Below are positions 3,148-56,235 of a stretch of DNA of 64,000 nt, one piece after another (the stretch's first letter is position 1; every line of letters starts with the position of its first letter). This DNA comes from Mucor racemosus (Eukaryota; Mucoromycota; Mucoromycetes; Mucorales; Mucoraceae). Under the pieces are notes generated by a model. It worked only from the letters and a program-made list of their open reading frames with translations, made no database searches and was not told where the DNA came from. The stretch spans positions 744,001 through 808,000 of the forward strand of contig JAPEHQ010000022.1 of assembly GCA_027405735.1 (NCBI GenBank), in the 5' to 3' direction. The translations under genes and the position numbers were made by a program.

Positions 3148-5049
3148 TTATAAGCATACTATCTCAGTAGTCTTGATGATGCCATGGTCAGTTTGACTGA
3201 ATACTATATCATCTAAATTTACTTCAGTATCAAGCATGCATTCTTCGACCTTTTTATGACAAGATTTGTTGTTGATAATAAATGGATTCGGTGAGGTAGT
3301 TGATGTTAAAGAAGTTGAGGGGTTTCGATATTCGGATATTTGTCGTTTTAATGACTGAAGATCTTGTCGTACATCACGAATGTCAATCATCAATTCCCTC
3401 TTTTTCAACTTGGGCATTTCAACTTCACGTTAGTACTCGTTTCAATCAGCTACCTTGTTTTTCCAATCTCTTTTTGAAGTACGAACACTCTTGGATGTCA
3501 AAATAAACTGATCCACTTCTTTTCTTCGTTCCTTAAACAACGTCTCCAAATCAGATCTACGATTATTCAAAGCCTTCAATCCGTCATCCTCATCCTGGGC
3601 TATTGATTTGTTGATTGCTTTTGGCTTTTCTTAAGTTGTTGAATATAATCTACTGTGCCATATATTCTGGTGGTCTTCAACCCAGGAAGAATGTAGATTC
3701 TGTTTGCAAACTCTAGTCCGTAGTTTGATGATATCTTTTTTAATTGATCAATATTAAAAAATGCGCTAAAGACAGCATCTTTATTAACAAGGGCTGAATC
3801 TTGTTTGATACGGTTGTCTTTGAAATCCAAAACAAACATTCTTTGTCTGCATTGTGTTAAGCAGAAGAGTGCATAAAGCATTGTTGTGTCAATAAGGAAG
3901 GAATGGAGAGCAACCGGTTTGATGATTGGTATTAATTTCACAACTTGACCATCGTATCCAATAGATCGGTAACACTTGATTTCCCATGAAGACAAGAGGG
4001 ACCTTATATTGAAAGAGATGAGAGTTATCTTTATCTAGTATATAAGGCTTTACGAAATTCACTATCTTTATGATTGTCTCATATTCTTTGTCACCAAGGT
4101 TCTTGAGCTTCATTTCAAAATAGCGTCTTGTAATCGTTTGTGTTTGAAATAATGCTGATCTTGTTACTTGTAACAATTGTTTAATCCTTCTTCTGGGAGC
4201 ATCCTTGGTCTTTTCAGCATTGATATCATCTCTAACTAAAGCATCCTTTACATTATCATCGTTGTCATCTTTTCGTTCACTCTTACTTTCCGGCTTTCCT
4301 TTCCAACCAGAATCCCTCTCTTCACACTACATGAATAACACAAAATGTTATTTAATGCTCTTGTAATATTCAAAGTTGAAGTATTTTTACCTCTCTTTCA
4401 AGTACTTGTCTGTATGTGTCTAATCTCCTCTGGCACTAACTTGCAGATAACTCTTTTCCCTTTTGTAAGTACTTGATTCGTTTCTTTTCCTCATTAGCAA
4501 ACAGCCTTCTTCTTTTTCCATTCCTGGTCATACGTAACAAAGAGATACGTTCATATTCACCGATACTTTCATCATCGACATCTTCATCTTCTTACATGTC
4601 ATCATTACTATTATTATTACTATCTTCATCAACATCATATTCTCTGTTTTTTGTAGATAATGTACTTGTTTCATTGTTCAAATTAGAGTGCTTTGTGGTG
4701 ACGAAGTTTTTTCGAATAAAATCTATCCAGTATTCTACGCTCATTTTCTTTGTTTTCTTACAATCATTTCGCAAAAATAGTTCGATAGAAGCAGCATCAA
4801 CATTGATACTTGCTGAAGCATTAGTTACCACACCCTTGGGAAGTCTTGTACCTTTCAGAAGAATCTCATAAAGTCTATCGTATTTCTGGTCTTTACATTG
4901 CTTAATTGAATTTACAAGTCTAATCTTGAATTGAGCTTCTAAAACACTCATGTAGTTTACTTTGTCATAGGACGTTGAACGCTTGCTATTACGACATCCT
5001 TGGCCATTATCTTCAAATGAGGCTGGAGAGTTTATGGTGGTTATGCTTG
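3148..5049 (-). pseudogene. Fanzor-like (TnpB-family) nuclease relic, copy A
   Basis: Colinear with the intact copy at 34.3-38.3 kb but broken. From the 5' end: the N-terminal helical region (about 5040-4592, motif RLPKGVVTNASAS against QLPRGVVSSAEQS in the intact copy, and MSVEYWIDFIRKNF against SIEHWKDYVKENF); then a jump to the RRRLFA segment (about 4510), so roughly 240 residues of the intact protein are missing; then the intron after ..VLERE at the same place as in the intact gene; then the middle region (4176-3600, KIVNFVKPYI, DAVFSAFFNIDQL) with a frame change near 3970; then the RuvC-I-like motif SQTDHGI (about 3190). It stops just after; the zinc ribbon and RuvC-III are absent. Stop codons and frameshifts mean it cannot make a nuclease. 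Confidence 0.75.
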
Positions 5050-6689
5050 AAATATAAACATCTACTTATCTTTTCCTTCTTCTCATTTAAATAATAGTAT
5101 ATATACTATAACAAGATAAAGAAATGGAAGAGGGCTCAAATATTGTGCGCGTACATAATAAACAGCTTTAAGGGTGCAGACCTGTTGTATTAAATGTTAA
5201 ATTGGCATTGATAACAATCGAATTGATAGATTAGGTTCAATGGAAATGTCTAGCAAATTGCTGTATTGGATAGACGCTTAAAGGCTTTACTGATAATCAA
5301 TTATATGTATGTATATGCAATAACTAACAAATATTTCTTTGTACTGAGCTATCGATCAAAATAGCTTAAACTTTCTCCCTCTTTCAGATGAATTTGAGTC
5401 ATAATGTTTACGATGTCGAGTGGGACACTTTTGCAAACAGTGAAAATAAAATCCATTTGGCAGATGTGGATTTAAGCTCAGTCAAGTGTAAATATCTGCA
5501 TAATATATAATTTTATATGGTCAGATTCAAAATCGGAGCGTGCACCTATTTCAATGGATAATCAGAAAATAAAAAATGCAAGGTTATACTTGACATGCTA
5601 CAAAATATTTCCAAAAGAGTTAGTTCTATTTATGTTGATTTCTCAGCGATTATAAATGCTTCAAGCGTGAAACACTTGCTTTCCCTAGGAGGAATAATAC
5701 ATAATAAAATGTATTATAGCTAAAAGTACAAATCAGAGTTAAATATTAAGTTGTTTAATAAAAAAATTTAGATATTAATATTAGATTAAGCTTGACAGGC
5801 TTATGATAAAGTTTTACCTCCAGAATTTATTACTTTTTATTGAAGATTTTTCTGGTTTTTGTGAGCTTTGGTTGGCTGCATTTAAATTTAGGTTTCTAAT
5901 TTTATTCGAATTGCCATACTGTCTGGTGATTGTTGCTTTGTGAATGTTTATACGATGCAATTATGGGTTTTTTACTCTTTGGAAAATTGATTTTGCCATA
6001 TTCCCTTGTTTGCAAAGTATTGAAAGCTTCGGTGAGCGATTTTACAGAAAAACATTCATTACTGTCGTCAATATTTAACTGATCTAATTGTTTAACTTTA
6101 ACCTTGTCGTTCCATCTATAAAACACGGCTTTCTGTTTCAGTATACACAATTTCTCTTCACTTTTTTTCTGGACGGACCTTGGATCTCGTATGTTCTCAA
6201 ATAGCGCATAATATCTTGAAATGCATCGCCATCTCGATTGATAAAAGATTCTTATAATTGAGAAAGAAAGAGTTTGTGGGATAATCACGTTAAAATAATC
6301 AACTTGGACGAGTTAATCAAAGCTGATACTCCCATGCTATCAAGTATTCGTGACTCATGCAGCTTTGAGTTACTGGTGGTTTATTTTACAGTCATTATAT
6401 TTTATTGATGCGATACATTTTAATTTAGCAACCAAAGATTTGGATAGAAAAAAATAGGTATTTTTTGAATATATATACTGTATATATATAATATCAAATA
6501 TTTTAACATATGTTTAAGCAATCTAATATTACGTGTGAAATTATTTTTAGGAACGATGATTTTTGTAAGGATGTGCACTACATTTATTTGATAATAAAAA
6601 AATTGATTAAAAAGTCTTCGTGTTTAATATGTTAAGAACATTTGAAAACAGGCAAGCTTCATTGTTAAGATACCTAGAAGATGTCACCT
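5050..6689. other. Intergenic DNA; one unassigned ORF and a sequence shared with the upstream side of Fanzor copy B
   Basis: No gene recognised. A 128-codon minus-strand ORF (5902-6288) has a basic, Lys-rich sequence with no family I recognise; it could be a fragment. Positions 5872-5906 are identical over 35 bp to 38636-38670. Near 5524-5545 is a short inverted match to the end of repeat R1 (CTCCGATTTTGAAT), suggesting an R1 fragment. The rest is AT-rich without further signal. Confidence 0.35.
5872..5906 (-). repeat. 35-bp sequence upstream of Fanzor relic A, identical to 38636-38670
   Basis: Thirty-five bases (starting TTGGCTGCATTTAAATTTAG on +) are identical at 5872-5906 and 38636-38670. 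Both lie on the 5' side of a minus-strand Fanzor copy (about 0.85 kb and 0.35 kb upstream of the respective 5' ends) in the same orientation. Similarity continues more weakly into the CGAAT and CAGTAT flank. It may mark an element end or a shared upstream region; function unknown. Confidence 0.6.
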
Positions 6690-8310
6690 TTCCTCTATAG
6701 GCCATTGATATATGTCCGAAAATAAAAGGATTGATACCAGAATATAATTGCACTGGCCAAATATTAACCAAAAATGACCTAAAATTGATTGTAAAAATTA
6801 GACAACCAAACTGAGGAGTTAATTTTCTGTATTCACAAGATAGATTCAACTCAAAGCTACTCTGTATTTTTTGTGTTAGCAAAAAATATTAGTTTTTCGT
6901 CGAGGATATCAAAATAATAGGGACATATCACAGCTTATAACCTATGATATTGAGTTCCAAAATCGATTTGATGAAAAAAACGATGGAAAAATGATTCAAA
7001 AAACAAAAGCATGTAATAACTCATAAACTGTAAAGCAAGTTGAGCCAGCGTACTAAATAGTTTTTGTACAATTTTGGATCCTGCATCCATTTAAATAAAA
7101 TTTAAACAAATGTTTTACATTAAATATTGCGCAAAATGCAATTGAAATTTTGAAGATTTTTTGAAAATACACATTACTTTTTATAAGCATGCTTTTAATA
7201 TATTTTATTAAAATTGAGAGTTATATGTAGATAACGATTATTTCCAATACAAATAAAATAAAGACTACAAGCGATTATATCACGGAGAACGTAGGGTCTT
7301 TATTATTAAGTTAAAAAGGAAGCCAGGAGCCATCAGGTCCTGGATTCTAAAAGTATTTATACCATTTCAATTCCATTTGGATGTCAGGTTCAATATGGGA
7401 TTGAAATGAGATTTAACATAAATAATAGGCAAAAACCTACAAAAATAATGCACAGCAAAAATATCTATTGATAGAGCTAATGTTGTATCTTCTAGCTGCA
7501 TTTTTCGTAGAGAAAACGAGATTTTTGTCAATTTTTTTTTAAAATTCAGAATTTGAGATTAGGGTATACAAGGAAAAAATTGAAGCTAAAGCCGAAGGTA
7601 TTCCTTTGTACACATTTTTGAGGATATCTCCACGAAAAATCAATACTTTAAAAAAATCTAAATTGGGACCGAGAGAGCTCAGCGAGGTTGATAACATGAA
7701 TGTAGAAAAAATGCTGATCAATTTAACGAATATTTTGAAATCTACTACAAAAATGTCAAAAAAATGAAAAAAAAAAATAAAAGTGCTCATAATTTTTTTA
7801 TACTGAAATATGTTATAGAGTACTTCAAAAAAAGTAAGTTTTATTATTAAAAGATATTAGTATAGCTTAATTTTTGGGAGAGATATGAAGCCTCAAAGTT
7901 TCTGATTTCTAACAGTGAAATACCTGTAAAAGTCTGAAACATTAGCATTGAAAAATTTATACTAACTACAGAAGATAGGATATTTTTGGATGCTCGTTTT
8001 TGGATTAAAGCTGAACATCTCAGGTACATTGGCATATAATTTTTTCTTGGTGTTATTTAGTGAAAAAAAAAGTAGAGCAGGGATGAAAAATGAAGCCCAG
8101 TTTTCAAGGAAAAAGCAGTGAATTTTACGTGTTTTTGAGTCTTTCGTGTGATATGAAATAAATTTAGGAATAGGTAGCATAATGCGATTAATTTATATCT
8201 AATTAGCAGTATCTAAGGTATATCTTAAAAAGTGTTTTGTATGAGATTAGTCATAGAAAAGAGGGCATGCTCCGATTTTGAATATTGACAACTTTGAAAA
8301 TTATTCAATT
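6690..8310 (+). repeat. R1 dispersed repeat, copy 1 (interrupted)
   Basis: First of four copies of a 1.4-1.6 kb AT-rich repeat (others 24280-25700, 30690-32060, and inverted 50440-51150 plus 55641-56235). Shared landmarks in order: the ATTGATAT..GTCCGAAAATA region, GTACAATTTTGGAT..GCATCCAT, the AACGAG..TTTTTGTCAATTTTTTTT block, TGAGGATATCTCCACGAAAA, and TGCTCCGATTTT at the end. No long ORF is preserved between copies; the short ORFs within it are not conserved. This copy is interrupted at about 7200-7420 by an LTR-like sequence. Class of element unknown. Confidence 0.75.
7200..7420 (+). repeat. LTR-like short repeat inserted in R1 copy 1
   Basis: Contains AATAAAGACTA..GGAGAACGTAG..CTTTATTA, a layout also present at 29190-29400 and inverted at 60294-60507. 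Its first part (about 7217-7263) is almost identical to 18386-18431. The intact R1 copies lack this block, so it appears to be an insertion. It includes an imperfect hairpin (CCAGGAGCCATCAGGTCCTGG). No coding capacity; a solo LTR or a MITE are both possible. Confidence 0.5.
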
Positions 8311-24279: not shown

Positions 24280-25700
24280 GCTATAGACCATTGATATCTG
24301 ATCGACAATAAAAGAGTTAATATCAGAATATAAGTGTACTGGCCTTAAGATTGACCTGAAGTTATAATGTAAAAATCAAAACCCAAAAGCGAGTTATTAA
24401 TCTTTCTTATCCACAAGGTAAATCCAGCTGAAAGCAAATCTGTATTGTTTGTTTCAGCAAAAAATATTGCCTTATCATCGAGATAATTAAAACAGTAGTT
24501 CACATTAGCATGAACCCTAAAATAACTGAATTCCAAAATCAATTTGTGAAATCGACCGAAAAATGATTAAAAAAACAAAATTGTTTCATAGCTTATGTGT
24601 AGTAAACTACATATACCAAGTTTGTTTAGTAATCAAATTGATCTTAGTCAACATCTAAGATCTAATAACTTTAAATCACACAAAACTTTAAAATGTCAAA
24701 TTGTACCACTGGTACTCCTAAACTAGGAACTAAACCATGAAGATCTTGCTTCAAGATCTTATTACTGTATTATTAATAGAATTAGAAAATAGTATATATA
24801 TTACAAAGGCTATGGTAATCCATAAACCTTTGCTTTTACTTTATATCTAAAATAAATATCAAAGAGTTATAATTGTAGTCGCAACGCTTTTTTTGTTTAA
24901 TTACTATTTTTGTAGCATTATGAACTGCAAAATAAGTTGAACAAGCGCATTAAATGGCTTTTATTCAGTTTTGGATTCTGCATCCATCTAAACAAAATTC
25001 AATCAAATGTTTTATATTAAATTTTGTGTAAAATACGATTGAAATTTTGGAGGTTTTTTTTGAAAATACCCATTACTTTTTATGAGCATACTTTAAATTT
25101 AAATAATGGAGATACTGCGCAAAAAAACTATCTATCGATCAAGCCATTGTTGAACCTTCTAACTGCATTTTTTGTAGAAAAAACAAGTTTTTTGTTAATT
25201 TTTTTTCAAATTCAGAATTTAGGATGAGGGTATATAGGGGAAAATTGAAGCCAGAAGCGAAGATATCTCTTTGTATACATTTTTGAGGATATCTCCACGA
25301 AAAACCACTATTTTGAAAAAAATTAAATCAGATCCGAGAGAACTCAATGAGATTGATGGTATAAATATAAAAAAGATGTTACTCATCAAATAAATATTTT
25401 GAAATCTACTACAAAAATGTCAAAAAACTGAAAGAAATAAGAGTGCTTGGGATTTCTTCATACTGAAATATGCCATAGAGTACTTTAAAATAAGTAAATT
25501 TTGTTATTAAAAACTTCTAGTATAACTTAATTTTTAGTAAAGATATAAAGCCTTAAATTTTGAATTTTTAGCTATAAAATACCTGTAAAAATCTGAAAAA
25601 TTAACACTGAAAAATTAATACCAACAGCAAAAAAATAGAATCTTTCCGGATACTCATTTTTGGATTAAGGTTGAATTCCTCAGGCACTGCATGTGTCTAT
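24280..25700 (+). repeat. R1 dispersed repeat, copy 2
   Basis: Runs colinear with R1 copies 1 and 3 (ACCATTGATATCTGATCGA.., TTCAGCAAAAAATATT, GCATCCATCTAAACAAAATTC, TGAGGATATCTCCACGAAAA, ACCTGTAAAAATCTGAAA). The short ORF at 25024-25227 is not kept open in other copies, so it is unlikely to be coding. Confidence 0.75.
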
Positions 25701-30689: not shown

Positions 30690-32060
30690 CCTTCTTTCTG
30701 TGAACCATTGATATCTGTTCGAAAATAGTAGAGTTAATACCTGAATATAAGTGCATTGCCCTATCGTTGATTAAAAATTGACCTAAATAAAGTCGATTGT
30801 AAAAAATTGAACACCTAAATTAAGATGTCAATTTTTTGTATAACAAGATAGATCTAATTGACCGCTACTCTGTTGTTTTTGTTTCAGAAAAAATATTGAT
30901 TTTTCGTCGAGATAATCAAAACAATAGCTTATATTACGGCTTAACCATATGCTAACTGGGTTTCAAAATCAATTTGACAAATCGACCAGAAAATGATTCA
31001 AAAAACAAAAACGTTTCATAGTTCATGAACTGTAAAGTAACCAGGCCTAGTATATTTAATGGTTTTTGTACAGTTTTAAACCCTGCATCCATTTAAGCAA
31101 GGTTCAAATAAATGTTTCAAATTAAATTTTGCGTAAAATGCAAGTGCATATTGAAGGTTTTTTGATAATACACATCATTTCTTATACTTATGCTTCAGGT
31201 ATAAATAATGGATATAATGTGTGAAAAAAATTATCTACCAATTGAACCATTGATGAGCCTTCTAGCTGCATTTTTCGTAGTGAAAACGGAATTTTTGTCA
31301 ATTTTTTTTTCAAGTTCAGGATTTGGGATAAGGGGTATACAAGGGAAAATTGAAGCTGGAGACAAAGGTATTTCTTTGTACACATTTTTGAGAACATCTC
31401 GACGAAAAACCAATATTTTGAAAAAAGCTAAATTGGATCTAAGAGAGCCCAATGAGGTTGATAAAATGAATATAAAAAAAATGCTGCTCATTTTAACGAA
31501 TATTTTGAAATCTACCCCAAAAATGTCAAAAAAATGAAAAAAAATAAAAGTGCTCATAATTTTTTCATACGAAAATATATTATAGAGTGCTTTAAAACAA
31601 ATAAGTTTTATTATTAAAAGGTACTAGTATAGCTTAATTTTTTGTAGAGATATGAGGCCTCAAAGTTTCTGATTTCTAACAGTGAAATACCTGTAAAAAT
31701 CTGAAACATTAGCACTAAAGATTTATATCAACTGCAAAAAATAGGATATTTTCTGATAATTGTTTTGAGATAAGAGCTGAGCATCTCAGGTACATTTGGA
31801 TATAATTTTTTCTTGGTATTATTTAGTCAAGAAAAAAATTGGGTAGGGATGAAAAGTAAGACCCAGTTTTTATGGAAAAAGCAGTAAATTTTACGTGTTT
31901 TCAAGTCTTTTGTAAAATTTAAAACGAATTTAGAAACAAGTAGTATAATGCAATTTATTAATATATATTTTGCAATACGTAAAGTATAACTTAAGAAATG
32001 TTTAATAGGGAGTTAGCTATAGAAATGACGGTATGCTCCGATTTTTACCTGACATAAAAA
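30690..32060 (+). repeat. R1 dispersed repeat, copy 3
   Basis: Colinear with R1 copies 1 and 2 and ends at the same TGCTCCGATTTTT motif (about 32033-32045). Contains overlapping short ORFs on both strands (31208-31537 +, 31231-31557 -) that are not preserved in other copies, so they are not called as genes. Confidence 0.75.
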
Positions 32061-32268: not shown

Positions 32269-33715
32269 TTACAATTTGGCTTCCAAAAATTCTGCTCTGT
32301 TCTTTTGCTTGGATGCAGCCTTGTTATATTCTTCTTGAGTAATAGGTCTTGCCTCAATAGCAGGATTATAACCAACACGAGGTTGAGAGGAGCCTTGACT
32401 AGCCTTCTTATAAATAGTGATAACGACAGCACCACCCAAACCAACATTATGTTGAAGAGCATACTTGACATTTGCAACTTGACGTTCACCAGTCCAGTTA
32501 CGTAATTGCCAAACAAGTTCTGTACATTGAGCAAGGCCGGTGGCGCCAAGAGGATGGCCCTTGGAAATGAGACCACCGGATGGGTTAATAACATATTTAC
32601 CACCATAAGTATTATCTCCCGAATCAATTAAAGTGTGAGCTTTGCCTTCAGGAGTTAAACCAAGGCCATCGTAAGTTAAGAGCTCATTAGCAGAGAAGCA
32701 ATCATGTAACTCAATGACTTGAACATCATTGGCGGTGATACCAGCCTTTTGATATGCTTGAGCAGCAGCACGACGGGTCATGTCACAACCTGCCCATTCG
32801 ATAGCATCAGTTGTCAACATACGAGGAGAATCAGTAGCCATGACTTGAGCAACAATCTCAACAGCTTGATCCCACAAGTTATGCTTCTTAACAAAAGCTT
32901 CACTAGCAACAATAGAGCAACCAGCACCATCAGATGTAGGGCAACATTGTAATTTTGTGAGAGGTCCATATACTTTAGGTGATTGTTCTACTTGGTCTAA
33001 AGAATAAATATCTCTGAATTGAGAATAAGGATTACGGGCACTGTGGCGATGATTCTTCTCAGCAATTTTAGCTAAATGTTGAGGTGTGGCGCCATATTTC
33101 TCCATATAAGCAATGCCGGCATTACCAAAAATTTGAGCGGCACCAGGTGCTTTAGGGTCAAAACCACGTTCCTGCATCATAACCATCATAACATGGTCTA
33201 TATATCAAAAAAGTGAATTAATATATTATCATTGGATGAGAAATTGTTCATATGGCTTTACCAAGAGGATTTGTACGATCTGAGAAAGTAGAAGAAAGAG
33301 AGCCTCTAGCCATTTTCTCAAAACCAAGGGCCATAGCACATTCAACTGATCCAGAGGCAACAGCATTACGTGCTTGATAAAGAGCAGTCGAACCAGTAGA
33401 ACAATTGTTATTTACGTTAATGATAGGGATTTGAGTCATACCCAACTGATATAATACACGTTGTCCGGCTGTACTGTCGCCGTACACATAGCCTACGGCT
33501 GCATATTCAACAGCATCGTAAGAAACACCAGCATCATTCAATGCTTTAACTGCTGCTTCAAGAGCAAATTCTGTAGATTTGTGTCATGTTAATTGAATAA
33601 TGTCTACTCTGCTTAATTCTTTTATTTTGTGTGTACCTGGATAATCAACCTCACCACGAGGTTTGATGAACTTGGACATACCAACACCAACAACATATAC
33701 TTTATTTGAAGTCAT
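32269..33715 (-). CDS. Peroxisomal SCP2/SCP-x-type thiolase, 438 aa
   Basis: Exons on minus: 33715-33637, 33570-33262, 33197-32269; phases agree. Thiolase fold with the nucleophile Cys in [13 protein letters not shown] (about residue 88), [20 protein letters not shown] near the C-terminus and [10 protein letters not shown] after it. The set [20 protein letters not shown] and [17 protein letters not shown] is characteristic of SCP2-type thiolases, which cleave 3-oxoacyl-CoA (including branched chains) in beta-oxidation. The C-terminal tripeptide AKL is a good PTS1 signal, so a peroxisomal matrix location is expected. The sterol-carrier domain fused to this thiolase in animals is absent. The gene is compact and intact although repeats lie on both sides. 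Confidence 0.93.
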
Positions 33716-34293
33716 TTTTTTTAATTTTTAAGATTATGAAAAGAAGAGAGAAAGTAGAAGAAAGAAAGAAAGAAAAATACTTATAAAGCCTATTTAAAAT
33801 GTGGGGAAATTATAGCTACCAGCAGTCCATCACATGCAATACAACACTGTTGACAAGTAAATTAGGAATATTTGCCATGACAAAAAGTTACCTGGGGAGT
33901 TCAAAAGGGGGGTTAATTGCATAAACCATTCAGGCTCTTTGTGTTCAACAGGACTATAGTTGAACGCCCTGTGCGTGTATTATTTAGTGATGGGAAAATT
34001 CAAGGGGTTAAAACCTGTTTATTATCAACGAAAGTGAGAATACGATGATAATCCGATTTATCGGTAGTTGTAATTAGGTTACTCATTGCACAAACTGAGA
34101 CTTTAATTTCAAGCTACATAAATATACTGTAACGATATAGCAAGCTAAGTAGTTCAAAAAGGAGAGAGATTTGATTAGTTGACTGGGCAACAAATGTGGA
34201 AGGATTTTACTTACCAAAGGTGAATTTGAATTTAGAAGATTAAAGAATGAATTGATTTAGTATTGAGTTATGTCTAATGAATATAAACTTACC
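33716..34293. other. Thiolase promoter side and 3' flank of the Fanzor gene
   Basis: Holds the upstream region of the thiolase (GA-rich tract 33738-33775) and the DNA just downstream of the Fanzor stop, where a guide-RNA scaffold or element end would be expected. A consensus splice donor on minus (GAG|GTAAGT) starts at 34292. No inverted terminal repeat of the Fanzor copy was recognised by eye. Confidence 0.4.
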
Positions 34294-37200
34294 TCAAAGA
34301 GCCGAAGCTCTCGTCGTACTACCCCCAACGGAGGGCCAGCTTGTCTGCTGTTTTCTATCCGAAAATACCAGAGCTAATTGAGAAAACATTGCTTGTTTCG
34401 CTGTTGTGTTTTTTGGATCAAAGCAAGGAAAGGTGTAACCAAGGATAAGCTGAGCAGCACCAGCGAGGCCAATCGCTAATGCAGAAAGACAATCCCTGCT
34501 CATGACGACAGACTTATTTGGGCAGGCATCGTTCAAACAAATGAATGACCCATTAGTCTTCTTGACTGTACCATCTTTTGCAGTATACGGATGTGATAAT
34601 TTGCTGAAACACCAAAGGCAGGTCTGAGAACTGTTGTGTTCATTAGTAATCAATGTAGGCGTATATCGAGAATGTCTCAGTTCTTTCCAATATCCACCAA
34701 ATCGCAAATGTCCTTTAATAGGAGACCTGATTGCATGCCCACGATCTCCAATAAACATAATAGGGGACGATACTTTCGTAAATTTTCGTTCCTTTGATGC
34801 AAGTCTATCATAAAATCGATTTTTCGTTAATTCTAATCGTCTTTTTTTATTAGCAGTCGATCTTGAAAAGTAAAATTGACGAATACATGACTTTGCTTGA
34901 GAATGGCGAGTGAATGTTGCATCCAGTTCATCAATTGTACCACATTGCTGTATACTGGACTCAGAAAGATCGCTTTCAAGATCAGCAACATTTTGACCTA
35001 AGACTGTGAGGCGCTTTCTTCTATTGAGCGAAGACGAAAAAGAAGCAAGACCACTATGTTGGCGGAGGGCGGCACTCCTTACCTTGAATGATGTGGGCAA
35101 TTTCTTCAACTGAGCGTCTTCTTTCTCTTCCATATAAGCGTCTTCTAAAATTTGTGCATTGAAAATTAGCCACAAGCAAGATATCAACGAGCATTAAATT
35201 ACCTTGATCTTGTAATACTTGAAAGCGATTGTACAAACGAAGATGATATTTCAACCTATCGACACCAAAAGCAACTGTCTCCGTGACATTAATAATACCG
35301 TTGTCTGTCCCTGAAAATACAAGTTGGTCTTTATCTACTTTTTGATCAATAATACACTCCTCCACCTTGTGATGGCAAGGTTTGTTGGGCTCGACTGGTA
35401 TTATCTGTCTTCTTTCAGTAGAGGAGGTAGCGTCATATCTCTGCTTGTAGATGTTATTATTGGCACTGGACAGTTCTTGCTTTGCTTTCACTACTTCTTG
35501 AATCAATTGTCTCTTCTTTTTCTTGGCCACTTGTATCTCTTTATGCAGCGAGTCTCTATCTATATTTTCATCATTCCATTTTTTTTTCAGTTGAGAAGCA
35601 CTTTCTGAACCAAGTAGATATTTATTAAGTGTAATTTGAGCGTCCTTCAACCTTTTCTCTATTGTGGTCTTCTGGTCAATCAATGCTGCAATTCTGCTGT
35701 TGATCTCATTGCTTCTTGTGGATGTCTGAGTCACAGGAGGTTGCTGTTTATTCTTCTGTTTATGCTTTTGGTAATTTCTAGTACCAAGGATTCTCACACA
35801 CTGAAGTCCAGGTAGTACATGCATACGGTAGGCGAATTGCAACCCGTAGCCAGCACATATTGTTTTTAGACGATCTATGTCGAAAAAACTACTAAACACA
35901 GCATCCTTTTGAGACGTAACTGAAGCCGCACGAATGACGTTCCCTTCGAAATCATAGAGTACCATCTTATGTTCCAGCTTTCGAGCACAAAACAAAGAGT
36001 GTAATGTAGTAGCATCAATCCATAACGCGTGCAGATTTGTAGGCCTGATGATGGGGGTCAATTTCACCACTTGCTCATGGTAACCAACAGAACGCAATAC
36101 TTGATTAACCATCAAGAGAAAGGGAATTTGATGTGAAAAGACATGGTATGTGGCTCTAGATGCCATGTATGGCTTTACAAATTTAATAATCTTCAAGATG
36201 ACCTCCACTTCTTTGTCGCTAATGTTGCTCAATTTACCAACAAAATATGCTTTGCAAATTGTTTTTTCCTCAAAAAGAGCTGCTCTTGTTATCTGCTTTA
36301 ACTGGTTTATTCTTTTTCGCGAGGTGTCCTCTTCTACCAAAATATCTTCCATGTCAACATCTTGAATCTCTTCTTCTACCAACGCTTCTTGCATTTTGAT
36401 ACCTTGCTCTTCTTGTTGTTGATGTTGCTGCTCTCGTCTCACTTGCCGCTTTTGTTTCTAGAAGGTTGTTTAATATACTTGTTCAATTCGATTGTTCATC
36501 AATCTTACCTCTCTTTGCAAAACATCTGCATATGAGTTCAGCCTTTGCTGACACAAGCTAGCTTTCCATTGCTTAACAACCCAATCTCCTCCTTTCTCGA
36601 TACAACGATTTCTTCTTTTAATCTCGTCAGCGAAAAGCCTTCTGCGTCCATTATAAGTTTTGTTGATGAGTGACATCGAGTTTACTGGAATGGCACAATT
36701 GTTGTTAGGAGGCTGTCTATTCTTTCCTTTATTCTTTCCTTTGAGCTCCTCGCGTTTTTTCTTGAATTCTTGATCACGAGCAGGAGATAAATGGACAATC
36801 AATAGAATATTCAAGAGTCTGTTCAATGCTTTGTTTACGATTGTATTATCTGCCCACATATTCATGAAATTGGCGATATAAACATTTCTTGCCATTTTCA
36901 TAACGTGAGACGACAAATCATTGTAAACATTCTCCTCATCACGCCCAAGTAAATTTACTATTGCTTTATGAAGTCGTGCCGTATTCAGGGTGGATTTGCT
37001 AATTCCTTTTGATCCAAAGTAAGTTGAATGGATTTGATCAAAGTGAACCTCTTGGAATAATGCATTGTACTCTTCTTTCAGGCTATCAGTCTGCAGGAAT
37101 TGACTATTTAAGGGCTTAGGCACAATCACATCCTCGTGTAGATATCCTACTGGTAACACTGGAATGAGACTTTGTCCCTCTTGGTGCACTAATTGAATAT

Positions 37201-38290
37201 TGCCGCTATTTGTGATAAATTGATTGTCTTTGAAAAGCAGCAACATTTTCATTACTTGCTTGCTGAAATCAGCCAAGTAATCTGAAGCTTGTTCAATGGT
37301 TTTATTGATAGTACCAATGAATGTTGATCGACAATTTTGTGGGAAATCCTTTCGAATAACTGATGAGAAGGATGCAGAGCAAGTTCTATGTGTTACGTCG
37401 TCTTCTACTTCATTATCATCTATTTCTTCCGGTTCTTCTTCATCTACTTCTTCTTGCTCTTCAACGCCTTCTTGAGCTGCAGTGGATTCTTCTTGTATCG
37501 TTACTGAATCTTTGAGGGATTCAAAATTTTCTTTTACATAGTCTTTCCAATGTTCAATGCTTTTCTTTTTGGTTGTTCTTGTTACACGATTTAGATACAC
37601 TACAATTGAATTTACTGGTGCATCGATGCTCTGTTCAGCGCTCGAGACCACACCCCTTGGAAGTTGTTTTAACTGCATCAATATTTTGTATAAATCATCG
37701 AAAGACTCGTTTTTATCATGGAATGTTTTGATATGCTTTATGATTCTATGTCTAAATTGAGTTTTCAACGAGTTCATATAAGCTTCATCATCATCAGTTG
37801 TTGCTCTTCTACGACTAGTTGTTTGTGTTTCCAAAGTTGCTGGTAAATTTCTCCTTGTAGTGCCAGGAACGTATATATTTAATTGTTTTCTTTTTATGTG
37901 CATTGAGATGTTATTACAATAGACAAAGAAGAAAAGAAAGATCAAATGTTGTCGATGCTAATACATTCAATGTTGGCCAACAGCGGGGTTTCCTCGCTCA
38001 CGCTGTGGGGCCAAATCAGTCCAAATGATTTATTTGGTTTTGCAGAATGTCAAGTTCGCAAGTTGTTAAAAAAAGTTAATTGCAGATATATGAGCTTCTT
38101 TGTTGTTTTGATATTATACCGTACATACCCTAGTGAAAATTTCAGTATAAGGTACAAACATTGGGTGGTTTTGATCTACAGCATTCATGAGAACATGTTG
38201 GTTTTCGATTTCTGCTTCGGTTTCTTCTTCATCTTCAACAATAAGATGTCTTTTACAAATATTATTCTCGGTAGGAGGTGGGGAGCTCAT
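34294..38290 (-). CDS. Fanzor-like protein (eukaryotic TnpB family, putative RNA-guided DNA endonuclease), copy B, apparently intact
   Basis: Proposed exons on minus: 38290-38129 (tentative), 37957-36509, 36457-35203, 35144-34294 (TGA); phases agree, giving about 1238 aa. If the first exon is wrong, starts at 37903 or 37777 serve. Order: N-terminal helical region (QLPRGVVSSAEQS, SIEHWKDYVKENF), acidic linker, long middle region, coiled-coil-like Lys/Glu-rich stretch, then a split RuvC nuclease: RuvC-I Asp in VFSGTDNGI, a beta strand MFIGDRG, a Glu in TNEHNSSQTC, zinc ribbon CLWC..CLNDAC, and RuvC-III Asp in MSRDCLSALAIG. This C-terminal order is the TnpB/Fanzor signature. Family knowledge: Fanzors use a guide RNA from the 3' end of their locus to cut DNA. 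No stop or frameshift inside, unlike copies A and C. The N-terminal extension is long for the family and its job is unknown. Confidence 0.75.
34298..34311 (-). other. UUCG-loop hairpin overlapping the last Fanzor codons
   Basis: On minus, AGAGC-TTCG-GCTCT forms a 5-bp stem with a C(UUCG)G tetraloop, one of the most stable RNA hairpins. It covers the last codons (..RASAL) and ends two bases before the TGA. In TnpB and Fanzor loci the guide-RNA scaffold overlaps the 3' end of the nuclease gene, so this is a candidate scaffold piece. A single short hairpin could also be chance. Confidence 0.45.
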
Positions 38291-39367
38291 GTTTTGTTTT
38301 GTATAAAAATAATGCTTTAAGTAAAATATTGATGACAAGTATGTATATTTTGATTATTTATTATTTAGTAGCTAATATATTAGGTAAATCTACAGGAGAA
38401 TCAAAAGATAGTTTTCTTTATTTATAGTGTTTTTGAGGGCTATTAATACAAATAAGCTGAAACAAACTACTGTGCGGCTCTTATTACCAACATGTCCAAG
38501 GTTTTTCACAAGTTTTGACTTGTGAAAACTACTACTGTCCATGCATATTTTTTAGTATAAGCAACTCAAACCAAGTATCGTCAAGTTTATTGACTTCCAT
38601 ATTTAGAAATAGACAGAAAAATTTAAGAGTTTTGATTGGCTGCATTTAAATTTAGGTTTCTAATTTTATTTATTCGAGTTATGATACTGAATAAGAACCA
38701 AGGAAAAATCAACCATAAAGCGGAGCGTGTGAATGCTAAATGTAAGCAACAAATGTAAAATGTACTATAGTCATCTGAAAGAGTATGAGCATATGATAAT
38801 GTACGCACACGCATTGAATTGACACTGGAAATCCATATACAGATTGTATGCATGTAGGGATAACATATTATCAATCATTAATTGCTTGTTTACAGAGGCA
38901 CTGTATATTTATTTTGTATTCTATTAGTAAAAATAATGAGATGTATTAGGAAGAGGTTCAGAATAATGTATGGTTTGTTTTATAGCAATCTGAAAAGCTA
39001 TCAATAGTAAATTAACGCACTTTTGTACACAAAAATTTCCGGAAGTGTTCAAAGCAAACGGTTGACAACCTTAATAAAGTAAAGTTGTGCCTATGCGTAA
39101 AAACAATATTCCAGTGTTTACGTACTAATTGATTATGGATATACTTTGGTATAATCATAATATATGCTTTCTACATGGTATTCTATGTTGGTTTAACTGA
39201 CAATCCTTTCATTCTTTATCCTCCACCATGCCGATTTAAATCCCCGATTACCTCCTCTTCAACAATACTTTTATGGCCGGCCCTATCATTACTTTGAACT
39301 CCAATACATATATATATATATTTTTTTTACTGCGACTTGAGAACACTTTAAATACTTTTTAATCAAA
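38291..39367. other. Intergenic DNA between divergent Fanzor and 39.4-kb gene
   Basis: Contains the 35-bp sequence shared with 5872-5906 (at 38636-38670). An 83-codon minus ORF (38623-38874) overlaps it and has no recognisable product. A TATATATATATA tract at 39308-39320 lies about 50 bp before the next gene's ATG and may be part of its promoter. Confidence 0.45.
38636..38670 (-). repeat. 35-bp sequence upstream of Fanzor copy B, identical to 5872-5906
   Basis: See the matching entry at 5872-5906: same orientation and same side relative to a Fanzor copy. Candidate element boundary or shared upstream region. Confidence 0.6.
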
Positions 39368-50439: not shown

Positions 50440-51150
50440 ATAGTGGGTCAATATGGACATATTCTACAACACCCACTAAAAATTTCAAAATAAAATAAAA
50501 TAAATAAAAATCGCAGTGTGCCCTCTTTTCTATAACTAAACCTATATCAGATACTTTTTTAAAAAGTATACCTTAGACACTGCCAATTAGATAAAAATTA
50601 ATTATAGTATGTTACCTGTTCCTGAATTTATTTTATATCTCACGAAAAACTCAAGAACAGGTAAATTCATTACTTTTTCCTTAAAAACTGAGCCTTACTT
50701 TTCATCCCTGCCCAACTTTTTTTTTCACTAAATAACGCCGAGAAAAAATTATATCCCAATGTACCTGAAATACCCAGCTTTTATCTCAAAACAAGTATCA
50801 AAAAATATCCTATTTTTTGTAGTTGGTATAAGCTTTTTAGCGCTAATGTTTCAGATTTTTACAGGTATTTCACCGCCAAAAGTTAAAAACTTTGAGGCTT
50901 CATATATCTACAAAAAAATAAGCTTTACTAATACCATTTAATAATAAAACCTACTTTTTTTGAAGTACTCTATAACATATTTCAATATAAAAAAATTATG
51001 AGCACTTTTGTTTTTTTTCATCTTTTTGACATTTTCGTAGTAGATTTCAAAGTGTTCGTTAAATTGAGTAGCAGTTTTTTTTTTACATTCATTTCTTTAA
51101 CCTCGTTGAGTTCTCTCGGATCCACTTTAGTTTTTTTCAAAATATTGATT
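50440..51150 (-). repeat. R1 dispersed repeat, copy 4, first part (inverted)
   Basis: Inverted relative to copies 1-3. It breaks off at ..AATATTGATT and resumes as TTTCGTGGAGATATCC at 55641; in uninterrupted copies these two pieces are adjacent. The DIRS element fills the gap. Confidence 0.75.
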
Positions 51151-51183
51151 CTAGGTCGAGAAAATTCTCGAAAGAATTTATTG

Positions 51184-55629: not shown

Positions 55630-55640
55630 AATTAACAATT

Positions 55641-56235
55641 TTTCGTGGAGATATCCTCAAAAATGTGTACAAAAAGGTGCCTTCATTTTTAGCTTGCATT
55701 TTTCCCTTGTATACCCTCATCCCAAATTCTGAATCTGAAAAAAATTTGAACAAAAATCTTGTTTTCTCTACGAAAAATACCGCTAGAAAATTTTACAGTA
55801 GCTCGATCGATAGATAATTTTTTTGCGCATCATTGCCATTAATTATATTTTGAATATGTTTATCAAAAGTAATATGTATCTTCAAAAAACCTCTAAAAAT
55901 TCAATTGGATTTTACGCCAAATTTAATGTGAAACGTTTGTTTGTTTTTTTTTAGATAGATGCAAGATATAAAACTGTATAAAAACTATTTAATACGCTAG
56001 GTCGACTTACTTTGCAGCTCATGAGCCAATAAATGATTTTGTTTTTTGAATCATTTTTCATTCATTTCAACAAATAAATTTTGGAATCCCGTGATGATAG
56101 GGTTTAAGCTGTAATAAGAACTATTATTCTGATTATCTCGACAAAAAATCAATATTTTTCGCTAAAACAAAAAATGCAGAGTAGCAATCAATTAGGACTA
56201 CCTTGTGGATACAGAATTAACCTTGGATAATGAGT
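55641..56235 (-). repeat. R1 dispersed repeat, copy 4, second part (inverted)
   Basis: Continuation of 50440-51150 after the DIRS insertion, starting TTTCGTGGAGATATCCTC and running back through the GCATC..AAACTGTATAAAAACTATTT landmark to the R1 start motif region. Confidence 0.75.

Follow-up and report, generated by a model that had tools for sequence, protein, structure and literature searches.

A 64,000-nucleotide stretch of the Mucor racemosus genome, referred to here as the window (C22:744001-808000 of the 53.2-Mb assembly; contig JAPEHQ010000022.1), carries a recently mobile element whose sole recognized gene encodes, as judged from its sequence and the modeled structure of a homologue, an oversized and divergent Fanzor1 nuclease of 1166 amino acids (aa) or more that is predicted to be active. 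The protein is a large, divergent form of a known kind and not a wholly new one. The reading that we favor, with fair but incomplete confidence, is that the element is moved in trans by a Crypton-type recombinase, that the nuclease aids its return, and, as a guess, that the N-terminal part of the protein binds a partner. The element occupies 34122 to 38689 on the minus strand, including both direct repeats (inner part 34130 to 38681, about 4.55 kb).

A 156-aa C-terminal query gave 91 matches in the genome. Family A, to which the window copy belongs, comprises 23 matches at 97 to 100% identity, and family B comprises 13 at 62 to 63%. A third group, at about 46%, includes family C, with eight uninterrupted frames of 1194 to 1196 aa and similar scores (L042:747-4334 and seven like places), without an intron in the one read. 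The split gene in the window ends at 34294 and starts at 37903 or further upstream. Its well-supported exons are 37903-36509, beginning with the ATG at 37903-37901 (the original prediction started this exon at 37957), 36457-35203, which contains RuvC-I, and 35144-34294, which contains the remaining nuclease motifs and the stop TGA at 34296-34294; joined, they give 1166 codons plus TGA. The two introns (36508-36458, phase 0, and 35202-35145, phase 1) preserve the reading frame, lie at the same positions in family B, and retain GT and AG in all 23 family A copies, while in family C a single 1195-aa frame runs uninterrupted across both positions. A frame of 1166 or 1169 codons is open in 18 of the 23 copies, which excludes a chance open frame; the other five are broken, one by about 400 bp of inserted sequence. 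A 720-aa frame in copy L021 was considered as an intron-less retrocopy and ruled out, as it reflects a one-base difference within the intron. A splice-donor-like sequence, GAGGTAAGT, overlaps the stop codon at 34300-34280 on the minus strand, with GAGGTAGGT as its counterpart near the stop in family B, and an intron in the 3' untranslated region is possible.

The C-terminal TnpB/Fanzor motifs named in the original prediction (SGTDNG, CLWC...CLNDAC, and SRDCLSALAIG) are all located in this gene. The RuvC-I aspartate is D850 in GTDNG (35303-35305), the putative zinc ribbon consists of C1059, C1062, C1086, and C1091 (34522-34620), and the RuvC-III aspartate is D1101 in SRDCLSALAIG (34492-34494). 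To these we add E1052 in TNEHNSSQTC (34639-34641), which stands at the alternative Fanzor position of the RuvC-II glutamate and was missing from the earlier motif list. All 23 family A copies retain the four cysteine codons along with those for D850, D1017, E1052, and D1101. In a profile that took in the sequence L078 as a bridge, E1052 and D1101 align to E541 and D606 of SpuFz1, the Fanzor1 of Spizellomyces punctatus; profiles lacking the bridge found nothing useful in the PDB, nor did searches of NCBIfam and PADLOC. The hidden Markov model search that had been proposed as a check gave only a subthreshold Pfam match to TNB (PF07282; 13.3 bits against a cutoff of 26.3). The structural comparison proposed alongside it turned out well: in the model of a homologue, the RuvC-TNB fold and part of the front half match the solved, RNA-guided Fanzor1 structures, including SpuFz1 (PDB 8gkh and 9cey). 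Another model, of the Mucor circinelloides homologue P0001 built from 11 sequences, was too poor for use (pLDDT 46.7). Alignment A1 held six sequences and A5 held 53 of the 56 proteins from the homologue searches (P0004, P0051, and P0056 left out); RuvC-I reads DNG in every sequence of A1 and A2. Assignment to Fanzor2 or a pro-Fanzor of the IS607 TnpB lineage was rejected, as RuvC-I is DNG and not DPG and the recombinase found nearby in related elements is a tyrosine recombinase, not an IS607 context. The 23 copies end precisely and lie in different flanking DNA, which points to a non-IS607 eukaryotic transposon as the carrier. Fanzor1 families of a more canonical type, L077 (with a TNB match above the cutoff) and L078, occur alongside family A, so that several Fanzor lineages coexist in this genome.

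Family A copies are 97.6 to 99.8% identical in pairwise DNA comparisons. Among the 18 open copies there are 158 nonsynonymous and 117 synonymous variants, giving a pN/pS of 0.357 (0.346 for codons 1 to 540 and 0.367 for the remainder), and by this measure the gene is under purifying selection. A decayed or domesticated gene without nuclease activity would be in keeping with the five broken copies and the subthreshold TNB match; we regard it as highly improbable given the 18 open copies, the pN/pS of 0.36, and the catalytic codons kept in 23 of 23.

What sets the protein apart is its front half. SpuFz1 is 638 aa long with its RuvC-I aspartate at residue 383, whereas here the aspartate is at residue 850 of 1166, implying some 470 extra residues in front. 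According to the available part of PMC11423790, Fanzor1 proteins are mostly 600 to 700 aa, and PpFz1 of Parasitella parasitica (PDB 9cf0 and 9cf1) has an insertion of about 100 aa within RuvC that binds cyclophilin; the extra part here is N-terminal and about 500 aa. The N-terminal region (codons 1 to 540; 37903-36233, spanning one intron) is conserved like the core: against P0001, residues 1 to 540 and the remainder are each 46% identical, and against family C the values are 25% and 33%. Relatives of this region were not found in the PDB or Pfam. Our guess is that the N-terminal 500 residues or so probably bind a partner, be it a recombinase, an RNA, or a host factor. A bolder version, which we think unlikely, is that a Fanzor1 branch within Mucorales gained a conserved N-terminal module of about 500 aa through which the nuclease is tied directly to a Crypton tyrosine recombinase, or which takes the place of an element-end guide RNA.

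The claim of an intact, multiexon gene thus stands for the minus-strand split gene with two introns and an open frame; the additional first exon proposed at 38290-38129, which can be joined in frame to give 1238 codons, remains unproven. This exon is covered in 12 of the 23 family A copies, and in all 12 it is 162 nt long, free of stops and indels, and followed by an intact acceptor AG; its ATG is present in 11, and its donor is GT in 10 and GC in 2. Because it is open in every covered copy, we grade it as unproven rather than rejected. The four closest database homologues, P0001 to P0004, which are gene predictions, have their starts at the position corresponding to the ATG at 37903, and family C starts three residues earlier. 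No convincing match to the exon's peptide was seen in seven loci of family B, family C, or other groups or in 56 homologues. Variants per site are 0.148 in the exon and 0.123 in its intron (12 copies), compared with 0.075 to 0.084 in the known exons (18 copies), and its pN/pS of 0.49 is no better than the 0.49 of an alternative frame. Over the 5' end of the element, the opposite (plus) strand has an antisense stop-to-stop frame of 137 aa at 37907-38320, which is open (132 aa) in L043, the locus of copy L021, as well; it is probably due to chance.

Similarity between the window copy and the 22 other family A copies ends at 34117-34125, and the 5' end was set by a block at 38591-38690 that is common to family B elements at 89 to 90% identity. 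In the sense of the gene, 20 of the 23 family A copies have the ends AAC(A/G)GTA-TCTTCACCCTGAG (with local variation) at the 5' side and ACCCTCT-CAGTA at the 3' side; the bases preceding the 3' CAGTA differ in a few copies, and one has TAGTA. This type-1 5' end, a long palindrome, was scored in 20 of 23 copies, with L001, L005, and L011 having other 5' ends. The window copy has a family B-type (type-2) 5' end, namely the direct repeat CAGTATCA at 38682-38689 followed by TAACTCGAATAAATAAAATTAG, and at its 3' end GTTA (34130-34133) precedes the direct repeat CAGTATAT at 34122-34129, reading GTTA-CAGTA. Genome-wide, the 3'-end pattern was confined to the 23 family A copies and one place with one mismatch (a reversed control pattern gave three matches), and hence no gene-less copies bearing a family A 3' end were seen in the pattern search. 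SpuFz1, in contrast, belongs to a terminal inverted repeat element with many ghost copies.

The type-1 5' end also occurs at three family B elements, and these are the copies that link the Fanzor to a recombinase. Of 61 NDC10_II matches in the genome, those near a family B copy are found only at these three of the 13; the window element has none. The recombinase that was scanned matches NDC10_II (4.9e-42) and GCR1_C (1.2e-23). One of the three is open with the conserved arginines and HxxR, the scanned one lacks the conserved arginines, and one is frame-broken; the roles of the arginines and HxxR residues are presumed. In three family B elements (seen at the places L055:410-3272, L093, L094, and L095) the junction between recombinase unit and Fanzor element has the identical sequence TTGATCATATTGTACAGTATTT-TAACTCG, and one capture event probably made the composite, which then moved as a unit. 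Another Crypton recombinase family has about 41 copies, seven same-strand pairs of which lie about 2905 bp apart as if in tandem (for example, G000 C8:802275/805181, C13:317079/319983, and C2:1558859/1561763). As a mobilizer of family A it was set aside: none of its places has the type-1 5' pattern nearby, and the one copy fetched lacks such an end, a weak test.

Fungal Cryptons, which have NDC10_II and GCR1_C tyrosine recombinases, resemble the present system in the recombinase beside three family B elements that share ends and in the short direct repeats; they differ in that family A itself lacks a recombinase and in that the 8-bp repeats of family B resemble target-site duplications (TSDs). 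The accessible text of PMC10711439 names Cryptons among Fanzor1 hosts. The nearest precedent is that of Bao and Jurka in 2013, who, in the portion of PMC3627910 available, reported ten Fanzor1 families in Mucor circinelloides. One of these, MCi-2, had 5' regions that differed, a Crypton recombinase that was partial, and repeats ATAATTNNNN(N), with its assignment to Cryptons left open. In element layout, MCi-2 as described there is like the elements studied here: both are multicopy in Mucorales, with near-identical Fanzor-carrying 3' parts and 5' regions that vary, a Crypton recombinase in one subfamily, and direct repeats whose first half is fixed and whose second half varies. The repeats are ATAATTNNNN(N) in MCi-2 and CAGTAnnn here, and the MCi-2 recombinase was reported as partial, whereas here Fanzor-only and recombinase-bearing elements have common ends. 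In the literature on Fanzor with Mucor, Crypton, tyrosine recombinase, or Mucoromycota, to the extent of its accessible text, PMC3627910 alone describes a Fanzor of Mucor together with a Crypton enzyme.

Crypton-type mobilization in trans is the most likely means of movement, the main rival being a DDE transposase. In 14 of the 20 type-1 family A copies the 5' CAGTA is followed by TCTTC, and in 13 of those 14 the 3' flank differs, so that a plain fixed-length TSD was rejected for family A. Six type-1 copies deviate from TCTTC, and in four of them these five bases are identical to those in the 3' flank of the copy itself (permutation P of 6e-5 for identical 5-mers and 3e-5 for matching letters, from six copies with a test chosen after the ends were seen). 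Such a mixture of 5' and 3' flanks fits strand exchange over a short overlap and not readily a fixed staggered cut. Weighing against the Crypton reading are identical 8-bp repeats, CAGTAnnn, in seven of nine recombinase-less family B copies, counted with the three composites set aside and one copy lacking a matched 5' end. These repeats, with short TAAC...GTTA inverted ends in most of those copies, would be expected if a DDE transposase with a strong preference for CAGTA made 8-bp TSDs and the family B recombinase were a passenger, and TSD-bearing Fanzor1 elements have been described, among them MuDr-like elements of Mucorales whose TSDs are 9 bp long, in the part of PMC3627910 available. We consider this account possible, though doubtful: it sits poorly with the fixed 5' CAGTA-TCTTC and unlike 3' flanks in family A, and a DDE gene was not noticed in the fetched parts of the elements, in which no systematic search was made. 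Empty sites were sought for two copies, and none useful was found.

Under Crypton-type movement, a recombinase acting in trans would use sites resembling AACAGTATWT to excise and integrate the element, and a circular intermediate would carry a GTTA-CAGTAnnn-TAAC or CTCT-CAGTA-TCTTCACCC junction. On the model of TnpB and Fanzor, a transcript running from the 3' end of the gene into the flank would guide the nuclease to cleave the empty site once it is restored, and repair from a sister copy would put the element back. Should that model apply, the CAGTA side would serve as the target-adjacent motif and the flank from 34121 downward as the guide.

The corresponding omegaRNA is predicted, again by analogy, to extend from the 3' noncoding region (34130-34293) into the flank, with its scaffold expected in that region. 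A scaffold structure was not found: the region had no Rfam match, single folds of seven 3' ends were no better than shuffles (z of -0.25 to 1.80; an eighth fold was of the 5' end), and folding of 30 3' ends gave no consensus structure between families A and B. The region is also more variable than the exons (0.19 variants per site against about 0.08, owing partly to the last six columns). Together with the conserved extra part of about 500 aa, these results would suit a nuclease that no longer uses an element-end guide RNA, whose target is recognized by the N-terminal module or a partner and which helps or regulates transposition. We give this a slim chance, as the residues of the active site are preserved and the model of the homologue matches Fanzors that are guided by RNA. 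Low predicted structure is, moreover, weak evidence, because omegaRNA lengths differ greatly among Fanzor1 proteins in the part of PMC11423790 available.

The surroundings hold other traces of these families. A second, decayed Fanzor element at 3158-5906 on the minus strand of the window is a family B relative (90 to 92% identity) that lacks the last exon, which encodes the nuclease C terminus. Elsewhere, one family A and one family B element lie in head-to-head orientation at a distance of about 8 kb (G000 C2:1004017, minus strand, and C2:1012195, plus strand). A dispersed repeat, about 77 to 85% alike between copies, occurs at 7462-8302, 24917-25687, 30990-32045, 50507-51161, and 55638-56067 and also flanks some Fanzor copies. 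A thiolase-like gene at 32269-33715 on the minus strand, which we take to be of the SCP-x type, starts about 400 bp beyond the 3' end of the element, placing the element within the upstream region of that gene.

It is an open question what reason eukaryotic transposons have for encoding an RNA-guided nuclease and how the nuclease cooperates with the mobilizing enzyme. The occurrence of Fanzor-only and Fanzor-plus-recombinase elements with common ends, a common target core, and many recent intact copies makes it directly testable here, in a group for which Bao and Jurka, in the portion of PMC3627910 available, left the Crypton membership of a Mucor Fanzor family uncertain. With its large, conserved N-terminal part, the protein also offers a concrete region to consider as a Fanzor domain for binding a partner. 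If the module reading, unlikely as we hold it, were true, site choice and nuclease-driven retention would be run by one two-enzyme system acting in trans on several element families.
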